From the NCBI GenBank assembly GCA_947446575.1, contig CANFHC010000033.1, positions 1 through 32,671 of the forward strand: 32,671 bases of DNA. The letters are read 5' to 3'. This document shows positions 14,567 to 17,052 of this stretch, piece by piece. The notes under the pieces were generated by a model. The model was not told the origin of the DNA and made no database searches. It saw only the letters and a program-made list of their open reading frames with translations. The position numbers and the translations under genes are program-made. This DNA comes from Bacteriovoracaceae bacterium. Its GTDB lineage: Bacteria > Bdellovibrionota > Bacteriovoracia > Bacteriovoracales > Bacteriovoracaceae. The stretch's first letter is position 1, and every line of letters begins with the position of its first letter.

Positions 14567-15190
14567 ATGGAAAAATTCGCTCATATAACTGCTGCTTTAG
14601 AAGACTTAAAGCAAGGCCATTTGATTCTTGTGACTGATAGTCATGATCGTGAAGATGAGGCCGATCTTTTAATGGCAGCTGAATTTGCGACCACTGAAAA
14701 AATTAATTTTTTTCTTAATCATGCCAGAGGATTAATTACAAATCCTATAAGCTCTGCCATTTCAAAAAAATTGTCTCTTCCCTTAATGGTTCCTGAAAAT
14801 TCGGGATCTATGATGACGGCCTTTACGGTGAGTATCGACGCTATTGCGGGAACGCATACAGGGATTTCATCAAAAGATCGCTGCACGACAATTAAAAAAC
14901 TAAGTGATGTGGATGCTGGACCTCAAGATTTCGAGCGCCCAGGACACGTATTTCCGTTAATTGCTCATGATGGTGGCGTCTTAGTTCGACCCGGTCACAC
15001 AGAGGCAGCAATAGATTTAATGAATTTAGCTAGGCTTTATCCTGTCGCAATTTTATGTGAAACACTAAATGAAATAGGGGATGCTCTAAAAGGTGAAGAA
15101 CTCTCCGCTTTTGCCAATACTTTTAAAATTAAAATCATTTCTATCGAAGACTTAATAAACTATCGATTACTTCTTAGTAAAACTATTTAA
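14567..15190 (+). CDS. ribB: 3,4-dihydroxy-2-butanone 4-phosphate synthase
   Basis: RibB converts ribulose 5-phosphate to dihydroxybutanone phosphate plus formate, supplying the four-carbon unit of riboflavin. The 207-residue protein is a monofunctional RibB with no GTP cyclohydrolase II domain. Motifs are the acidic loop DREDEADL (27-34, usually DRENEGDL, keeping the R-E-x-E-x-D residues), AFTVSIDA, HTGISSKDR, RPGHVFPL (124-131), RPGHTEA (141-147) and Glu165 in LCETLNEIGD. No other riboflavin gene is near and no FMN riboswitch fits in the 12-bp gap upstream. The last 24 bases overlap the 3' end of the convergent cytochrome gene. Confidence 0.92.
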   Translation: MEKFAHITAALEDLKQGHLILVTDSHDREDEADLLMAAEFATTEKINFFLNHARGLITNPISSAISKKLSLPLMVPENSGSMMTAFTVSIDAIAGTHTGISSKDRCTTIKKLSDVDAGPQDFERPGHVFPLIAHDGGVLVRPGHTEAAIDLMNLARLYPVAILCETLNEIGDALKGEELSAFANTFKIKIISIEDLINYRLLLSKTI

Positions 15191-15535
15191 ATAAGCATGA
15201 AGTGCGGGAATATCTTTTTCTAAAAATGGAAGGGCCGGCATTAACCCAGATTTTCTCTTTGGAATGTATCCGGGTGGGTATGACTGATGAACAACTCTTG
15301 CAGTGATTAATTCAAGCGAAGACCAGGCGACATCGGGCCCAATACTTCCAGCATATCTTGGATCTGGGTTGTGACAAGCAATACAATTTGTCATGTAAAC
15401 TGATTTTCCTTTTTGCTCTAGTGCAGAAAGTGGTTTTTCATTTGTCTTTGTACAAGCAGAATTAAAGAATAAAACTGGGAGCAACAAAGTTGCTCCCAGA
15501 ATATATATTTTAAAATTTATTTTTTTAAAAATCAT
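15167..15535 (-). CDS. Lipoprotein cytochrome c, single haem
   Basis: The 122-residue precursor has a signal with lipobox-like FFNSAC, so Cys28 is probably lipidated and the protein tethered on the periplasmic side. The haem-binding motif CIACH (51-55) follows the usual class I helix, and Met99 in KSGLMPALPF is a plausible distal ligand, giving a small class I cytochrome c. It overlaps the upstream PuuD-type membrane gene by four bases (ATGA), so the two are translationally coupled and probably act together. In PuuD proteins a cytochrome c domain is fused to the C terminus of the membrane part; here it is a separate protein. A terminator-like hairpin lies inside its signal-peptide codons. Confidence 0.88.
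   Translation of the reverse strand: MIFKKINFKIYILGATLLLPVLFFNSACTKTNEKPLSALEQKGKSVYMTNCIACHNPDPRYAGSIGPDVAWSSLELITARVVHQSYPPGYIPKRKSGLMPALPFLEKDIPALHAYLNSFTKK
15475..15499 (-). other. Terminator-like perfect hairpin inside the cytochrome c coding region
   Basis: CTGGGAGCAAC (15475-15485) and GTTGCTCCCAG (15489-15499) form an 11-bp perfect stem with a 3-base loop. Read on the minus strand it covers codons 13-21 of the cytochrome gene and is followed by TTTTATTCTTT, the layout of an intrinsic terminator or attenuator. Confidence 0.6.
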
Positions 15536-16263
15536 TTAGTAAGAACCTCAATACCAACATAAAGAATTGCAGTTAAAACTAGACCAATGTGAGTTACACC
15601 CATGATTGATGTAATTTTAAGATTGTCTGTTTTACCTTTAATTGCGTTCAATTCTAGGGCACCTAAAACAAAGGCCACGAAAGCAAAAACTTTCCAGCCA
15701 TTATATTCAGGATTAACTTGCGAAGGAAGGTGAGAAGCAGCTCCCATCAAAAAAAGTAATGGAATTGAGAACAATGTATTATGTCTTGAAGCAAGTCCTG
15801 CTTTTCCTGCTGCTGCCGCTGCTTCTGGAAGAGCCGCTCCGCCGCCAGCGATTTGTTTAGCTGAAGCGATAACGATTTTTTGATTTGGCCAGATGATAAG
15901 CCAAACGTTTAAAAACATAACTGTTCCAAAAAGTGATCCAGTTGCGATGTAAACCCACCAAGATGATTTCATAACTTCGGCCATTCCACCAGCGCTATGA
16001 GTTTTTAGACCAATGATAAGAACGCCTGTTATAAAAGTTGCTAAAGCTCCGTATCTAAACCATGCCAATGCACGTGGAACTAAAGTTCTCACTGCAACAC
16101 CACGAGAAGATTTAATTTTTTCATCAGCGTCTAGTTCTTTAAACCATTCACCTTGAACAAAATTGAAGTAATAAAGCATTCCAATCCAAATGACGCCGAA
16201 AAAATAATGAAGAAAGCGTAAAAACATTTCTGAACCTTGCATAGAAAATAAAGCGAAATTCAT
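15532..16263 (-). CDS. PuuD/urate-oxidase-N-type membrane protein
   Basis: The 243-residue integral membrane protein matches the membrane part of PuuD (Urate_ox_N family). It has several long hydrophobic helices, His19 in FLRFLHYFFGVIWIG, the family-like LNVWLIIWPNQK stretch (118-129), His161 in SRHNTLF, His178 in GAASHLP and His225 in a late helix; these are candidate haem-b ligands. PuuD is described as a membrane urate-oxidising enzyme with a fused cytochrome c, but no purine genes occur here, so the substrate is unknown. The start is ATG 16263, preceded by GGAGG, not the upstream ATG 16293. The cytochrome gene overlaps its 3' end, and a divergent XRE-cupin regulator shares the 153-bp upstream region. 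Confidence 0.75.
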   Translation of the reverse strand: MNFALFSMQGSEMFLRFLHYFFGVIWIGMLYYFNFVQGEWFKELDADEKIKSSRGVAVRTLVPRALAWFRYGALATFITGVLIIGLKTHSAGGMAEVMKSSWWVYIATGSLFGTVMFLNVWLIIWPNQKIVIASAKQIAGGGAALPEAAAAAGKAGLASRHNTLFSIPLLFLMGAASHLPSQVNPEYNGWKVFAFVAFVLGALELNAIKGKTDNLKITSIMGVTHIGLVLTAILYVGIEVLTK

Positions 16264-16351
16264 AAGGCCTCCGTGAAAAATAATTAATAACAAAATAGAC
16301 TTAAGTTTAGGATAACAAAGAATATTTAAAAGTATCTATAAAATTAACAAA

Positions 16352-16380
16352 TTGCCAATATTTTGGCAGAATGATAATAT
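16352..16380 (+). promoter_or_regulatory. Promoter of the XRE-cupin regulator gene
   Basis: A -35-like TTGCCA (16352-16357) and -10-like TAATAT (16375-16380) are spaced by exactly 17 bp. The start codon lies 36 bp downstream with GAGG at 6-base spacing. The -35 lies inside a palindrome, which suggests autoregulation. Confidence 0.65.
16353..16368. promoter_or_regulatory. Candidate operator TGCCAA-TATT-TTGGCA
   Basis: A perfect 6+4+6 palindrome overlaps the -35 of the regulator gene. Its left half TGCCAATAT recurs at 16398-16406, just before the ribosome site. Such symmetry fits a dimeric XRE repressor binding its own promoter. Confidence 0.55.
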
Positions 16381-16416
16381 GCTAACAATTCTTTTCGTGC
16401 CAATATGAGGTTTTTC

Positions 16417-16992
16417 ATGTCTTTATCTGACTTTGATTCATTATCTAAAAACCTCGCTGAACGCCTTATAGATCTTAGAATGCGTCGCAATCTAACCCAG
16501 GCCGATGTCGCTAAAATCGCAGATGTTCCGAGATCTACAATTGCCAACTTAGAATCAGGCACTGGAAATCCTTCCCTTATAAATCTCGCTAAAATTGCCA
16601 GCAGTTTGGGCACCTCGATTGAAATGCTTTTAACTTCGCCTCAAGCGCTATGTAAAAAAATTCCAGCCGATCAAATTAAATCGGTGAGTCGCTCAGGTGG
16701 CGAAGTAACCGTTATAAAACTTTTACCTGACCCAGTTCCAGGCATGGAAATCGATAAAATTGAACTCAATGTCGGCGCACGTATGCGAGGAATTCCACAT
16801 GCGGCCGGCACCAAAGAATATCTGCATTGTTTGCAAGGTGAAATCGCCATAGTCGTAGCCGGTGAAACTTATCAAATATCTAAAGGTGATGTGTTAGCAT
16901 TTCCAGGGGAAATTCATCATTCTTATGAAAACATCGGCAAAGGAAAAGCTGTGGGTTTAAGTGTGGTGGCGATAGCACCGGTGGGTGTTTAA
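16417..16992 (+). CDS. XRE-family regulator with C-terminal cupin domain
   Basis: The 191-residue protein has an N-terminal helix-turn-helix of the Cro/C1 type (about residues 14-73; key stretch NLTQADVAKIADVPRSTIAN) and a C-terminal cupin barrel (about 115-187; KEYLHCLQGEIAIVVAGE, then GDVLAFPGEIHHSYEN). XRE-cupin proteins are one-component regulators whose cupin senses a small molecule. Candidate metal/ligand residues are His136 and His169-170. ATG 16417 is chosen because GAGG stands six bases before it. It is divergent from the PuuD-like/cytochrome operon, the most likely target besides its own promoter. A 13-bp hairpin follows. Confidence 0.87.
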   Translation: MSLSDFDSLSKNLAERLIDLRMRRNLTQADVAKIADVPRSTIANLESGTGNPSLINLAKIASSLGTSIEMLLTSPQALCKKIPADQIKSVSRSGGEVTVIKLLPDPVPGMEIDKIELNVGARMRGIPHAAGTKEYLHCLQGEIAIVVAGETYQISKGDVLAFPGEIHHSYENIGKGKAVGLSVVAIAPVGV

Positions 16993-17020: not shown

Positions 17021-17052
17021 CTCTACCCGATAACTAACATTATCGGGTAGAG
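17021..17052 (+). terminator. Strong hairpin between convergent genes, probable terminator
   Basis: CTCTACCCGATAA and TTATCGGGTAGAG form a perfect 13-bp stem with a 6-base loop. A T-run begins 10 bases after the stem (17063-17069), so it is an imperfect intrinsic terminator for the XRE-cupin gene on the plus strand. Confidence 0.55.

Follow-up and report, generated by a model that had tools for sequence, protein, structure and literature searches.

The signal-peptide codons of a cytochrome c gene from a Bacteriovoracaceae bacterium contain a perfect 11-bp hairpin followed by a T-rich tract. We propose that it is probably the intrinsic terminator of the upstream Urate_ox_N-type membrane protein gene, embedded in the cytochrome coding sequence and attenuating the cytochrome by partial read-through. 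The structure is conserved beyond the needs of coding, depends on the operon junction and has a terminator-like anatomy. Judged from sequence comparison, its best-supported function appears to be to attenuate the cytochrome with respect to the membrane protein.

The hairpin and its gene neighborhood

The window is the whole stretch of DNA analyzed, 32,671 nucleotides of contig CANFHC010000033.1. The relevant features, all on the minus strand, are as follows.

15532..16263, minus strand: upstream membrane protein gene, 243 aa, with a partial Urate_ox_N match (PF06181, DUF989)
15532..15535, minus strand: ATGA overlap of the cytochrome start codon and the membrane-gene stop codon
15167..15535, minus strand: lipoprotein-type cytochrome c gene, 122 aa, CxxCH motif, PF00034
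15489..15499, minus strand: hairpin 5' arm CTGGGAGCAAC, in codons 13-16 of the cytochrome gene; structure kept in 13/13 genus loci
15486..15488, minus strand: hairpin loop TTT; loop length 3-8 nt in relatives
15475..15485, minus strand: hairpin 3' arm GTTGCTCCCAG
15464..15474, minus strand: T-rich tract TTTTATTCTTT, abutting the stem and also encoding the hydrophobic core

Read on the minus strand from 15499 to 15475, the hairpin is CTGGGAGCAAC-TTT-GTTGCTCCCAG, followed by TTTTATTCTTT. All 11 of the 11 stem positions are paired, seven of them as G-C pairs, around the 3-nt loop. The perfect stem, TTT loop and T-tail that the preliminary description had placed in codons 13-21 are thus borne out by the sequence, the hairpin occupying nt 37-61 of the cytochrome ORF (15535-15167, minus strand). 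The cytochrome ATG overlaps the TGA of the membrane gene as ATGA, and the hairpin begins 32 nt past this overlapping stop codon. It ranks first among the terminator-like sites in the 16 kb scanned, with a fold z-score of −5.4 against shuffles for the local 82 nt and −2.8 for 121 nt.

The cytochrome carries a lipoprotein-type signal peptide, and the match of the 243-aa protein to PF06181 is partial, covering positions 172-262 of the 295 in the profile. The membrane gene adjoins the cytochrome gene in nearly all loci, across the family and the phylum, and none of the 29 family genomes lacking a cytochrome match has the membrane gene. Close relatives among public genomes bear the names Bacteriovorax sp. 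and Bacteriovoracaceae, the latter a family of mostly predatory bacteria.

Three further observations concern the neighborhood. The 3' ends of the cytochrome gene (minus strand) and the convergent ribB (plus strand) share 24 bp at 15167-15190, and a like overlap is present in several genus relatives. Between the membrane gene and a divergent HTH-cupin regulator gene (16405-16992, plus strand), positions 16344-16420 hold a TTGCCAATATTTTGGCA palindrome and a TTGGCA-type repeat, possibly the operator of that regulator. A strong 13-bp terminator-like stem, CTCTACCCGATAA..TTATCGGGTAGAG, lies at 17021-17052 between the cupin regulator gene (plus strand) and a convergent response-regulator gene (minus strand).

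Conservation of the structure and its dependence on the junction

The need for the stem beyond coding was assessed with a synonymous null, in which the same peptide was recoded 2000 times with codons sampled by local usage. None of the 2000 recodings of the cytochrome gene matched the observed stem and T-tail. The relatives agree with this: the hairpin is present in all 13 genus genomes that have the cytochrome gene, and each of the 13 loci exceeds its null (p≤0.0025). Across the family, 37 of the 45 genomes with the cytochrome gene reach p<0.02. These counts include genomes of the same genus, which are non-independent relatives, and they rest on ORFs and start codons assigned with simple rules. 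Outside the family, only 4 of 27 junctions pass and the remaining 23 are without a stem. The four (L132, L128, L172 and L130) have their own unrelated start-proximal stems (p≤0.004 each), for example CCGCCCAGGG..CCCTGGGCGG TTTTTAGTTT in L132, hinting at convergence. Within the family, the stems of different genera occupy the same place but are unrelated in sequence; therefore, the structure has been either kept or re-made several times.

The arms of the hairpin covary. Among the 13 genus loci, the covariation score was 0.284, compared to 0.19 for shuffled and at most 0.11 for slid partners, and two-sided changes occur at five stem pairs. The arms were aligned without the loop for this comparison, since MAFFT misplaced the 3' arm of some rows. 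In L006, Gly is replaced by Arg and Pro by Ser while the pair is retained as A-U, and in L013 the stem is read in a different codon phase. Such changes indicate that the RNA structure is kept while the peptide changes. It could be argued that a hydrophobic peptide of the LGA..LLP type is self-complementary at the RNA level by chance, and this peptide pattern does recur in close relatives. We regard such a coding by-product as extremely improbable: it is contradicted by the synonymous null, by the L006 substitutions, which alter both amino acids but not the pair, by the shifted phase in L013, and by the other genera, where unrelated peptides accompany unrelated stems. On this comparative evidence, the hairpin cannot be put down to chance or to the demands of the peptide. 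Selection on RNA structure, which the preliminary description had suggested from the Leu codons, is strongly supported by the synonymous null, the covariation and the recurrence across genera.

The hairpin is also exceptional among start regions. In about 0.83 Mb of this genome, covering 745 ORFs, no other ORF has so strong a hairpin-plus-T-tail within its first 38 codons. Samples of three genomes (745, 366 and 403 ORFs) gave the same picture: each time, the start-proximal hairpin with a T-tail that was strongest, or the only one, came from this cytochrome family. A general feature of signal-peptide genes can be rejected, as only 7 of the 592 hydrophobic-start ORFs in the three genomes pass the threshold; when these ORFs were ranked, a member of the cytochrome family came first in each list. 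Two other genes of this genome, L052 and L061, also have hairpins, but these showed no conservation in the orthologues checked.

The stem follows the junction and not the cytochrome protein. It is present in 46 of 51 junction copies, the other five falling short of the cut-off, and in none of the three cytochrome homologues located outside the junction (Fisher p 0.002, small numbers). These three stemless homologues, two in G122 and one in G104, are not situated 3' of a membrane gene. The two genes of G128 are separated by 80 nt, and there the stem occupies the gap, outside the coding sequence. The membrane gene of G122 stands alone, and past its stop codon come a 14-bp stem and TTTTCTT in the form of an ordinary terminator. 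One junction in G133 has a weak stem, and a strong terminator is found 3' of that cytochrome instead. Where cytochromes occur in tandem within an operon, a separate stem accompanies the second copy in 7/7 cases. As in an operon-internal terminator, the element sits between the two operon genes and depends on their junction, moving to the gap or behind the membrane gene.

Terminator-like anatomy, proposed mechanism and alternatives

In energy and in distance from the upstream stop codon, the hairpin resembles the post-stop terminators of the sampled genomes. The stem energy is −18.5 kcal/mol, this genome's post-stop terminators having a median of −15.1, and the stop-to-stem distance has a median of 20 nt, versus 20 nt for canonical terminators. 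The GC-rich stem and short loop of a Rho-independent terminator are present, as is a U-tract, TTTTATTCTTT, directly after the stem with 6 T in 8. This tract is interrupted (TTTTATTC), and therefore termination may be weak. Across the family, T after the stem is above the synonymous expectation (z 5.5), although hydrophobic codons account for most of the T-tail and a mild T excess also precedes the stem (z 3.1). The stem starts 17-54 nt from the start codon across copies and never within 17 nt, as is expected if initiation must stay unblocked. The alternative upstream pairing of a riboswitch or leader attenuator was not found: the longest upstream match to the 5' arm was no longer than in shuffles (13 loci). 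A terminator on the plus strand is not favored, the flank that would be its tail being A-rich there (T 0.57 upstream, minus strand). A DNA operator is likewise not favored, as the loop varies between 3 and 8 nt while the arms covary.

We propose the following mechanism. Because of the ATGA overlap, the first RNA without a ribosome close behind the polymerase would begin just past the stop/restart point, beyond the footprint of the initiating ribosome. In this ribosome-free gap, the emerging transcript could fold into the GC stem with its U-tract, and some of the polymerases would be released. As the double meaning of the terminator has been kept across genera, the cytochrome would probably be made only from transcripts that read through this stop signal, at a level below that of the membrane protein.

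A related but doubtful possibility, which we put forward tentatively, is that the attenuator is gated by the ribosome, since the stem sits within the translated start of the gene under its control. A transcript would then escape termination only if a ribosome promptly resumed translation at the ATGA junction, and such a device would be met again at other junctions, making up a class of terminators dual-coded in N-terminal codons. A second candidate junction involves a gene for a dppB-like peptide-type ABC permease (L065:7200-8216, minus strand; loci L185-L196), situated directly 3' of a gene resembling its binding protein. Of its 13 genus copies, 6 have a stem at codon 11; these stems have diverged (synonymous-null p 0.001-0.008), and the tails are weaker in some copies. 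Cells commonly need more binding protein than permease, and a ratio-setting role for this stem would fit that need.

Other roles for the conserved stem can be envisaged. The hairpin could stop 3'→5' exonucleases and stabilize the membrane-protein mRNA after cleavage in the cytochrome message, without terminating transcription. Such a processing barrier would fit a stable stem kept regardless of its sequence and close to the upstream stop codon. However, it needs no U-tract, yet T 3' of the stem exceeds the synonymous expectation, and the stem with TTTTCTT behind the stand-alone membrane gene resembles any terminator; we therefore consider this role unlikely. The hairpin might instead act on translation, by slowing early elongation, setting the coupling between the genes or pausing the ribosome for export. 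Its position within the coding sequence, always at least 17 nt from the start codon as if abutting the initiating ribosome, could be read in this way. Conversely, the distance to the start codon varies up to 54 nt, the stem is outside the coding sequence in G128, and the G122 stem comes after a gene that has no downstream partner, which makes a translational role quite unlikely. The export pause raised in the preliminary description is not supported, because signal-peptide homologues outside the operon have no such stem. With only about 9-12 residues made, the nascent chain on a ribosome halted at the hairpin would be too short, given the geometry of the ribosome, for the signal peptide to have emerged.

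The stem might also shield a convergent neighbor, here ribB, from antisense transcription. Convergent genes follow the cytochrome in most genus relatives, and no terminator was found 3' of the cytochrome gene here. Against this, the next gene is co-directional in 14 of the 31 family loci examined, in seven of which it is a tandem cytochrome with its own stem, and cytochromes outside the junction are stemless. Shielding is thus very improbable. Partial termination behind the membrane gene is the reading that we prefer.

Relation to known systems and significance

The proposed role resembles that of the ioTTSs of Methanococcus maripaludis, operon-internal partial terminators that set gene ratios (PMC10450193). 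In both cases, a terminator between two operon genes would lower the downstream gene and set subunit ratios. Unlike the present element, a bacterial-type stem dual-coded within the downstream coding sequence, the ioTTSs are intergenic and archaeal and have other terminator motifs. ORF-internal RNA 3' ends and premature termination are known in E. coli and Borrelia, and in Borrelia a significant intrinsic terminator score was obtained for 151 of the 994 ORF-internal ends (PMC7815308, PMC10319736). These are likewise terminator-like features inside coding sequence, but they come from 3'-end maps of single species, whereas here a single site in signal-peptide codons, known from sequence alone, is conserved family-wide. 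In the 5' terminator and attenuator families (PMC2965389), the expression of a gene is controlled by a terminator that precedes most of it, as proposed here; however, those terminators are located in leader regions ahead of the start codon and are often accompanied by a sensing structure, whereas this stem lies past the start codon.

The fusion of an 8-TM DUF989 domain to cytochrome c, as in the membrane urate oxidase PuuD (PMC4562309), is not found here. Membrane protein and cytochrome are encoded by separate genes with the terminator-like stem at their junction, and urate oxidation would be a putative activity of this pair. The same paper mentions shorter DUF989 proteins without the cytochrome, which the upstream gene product resembles. 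In a limited literature search, we came across neither a family-conserved terminator dual-coded in a signal peptide nor published termination data on Bacteriovorax. Operon-internal terminators are already known, and a family-wide one dual-coded in a signal peptide is, as far as we found, new.

Terminator finders that mask coding sequence would miss such dual-coded elements. Among natural relatives the stem may be retained, missing, relocated or duplicated, and these overlapping-gene operons therefore offer a clean system for testing the tuning of subunit ratios. If the ribosome-gated reading is true, initiation of cytochrome translation would decide whether the rest of the gene is transcribed. 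If the more general proposal of a terminator holds, terminator and signal peptide share codons in this family, and selection on the RNA would have carried amino-acid changes along with it.
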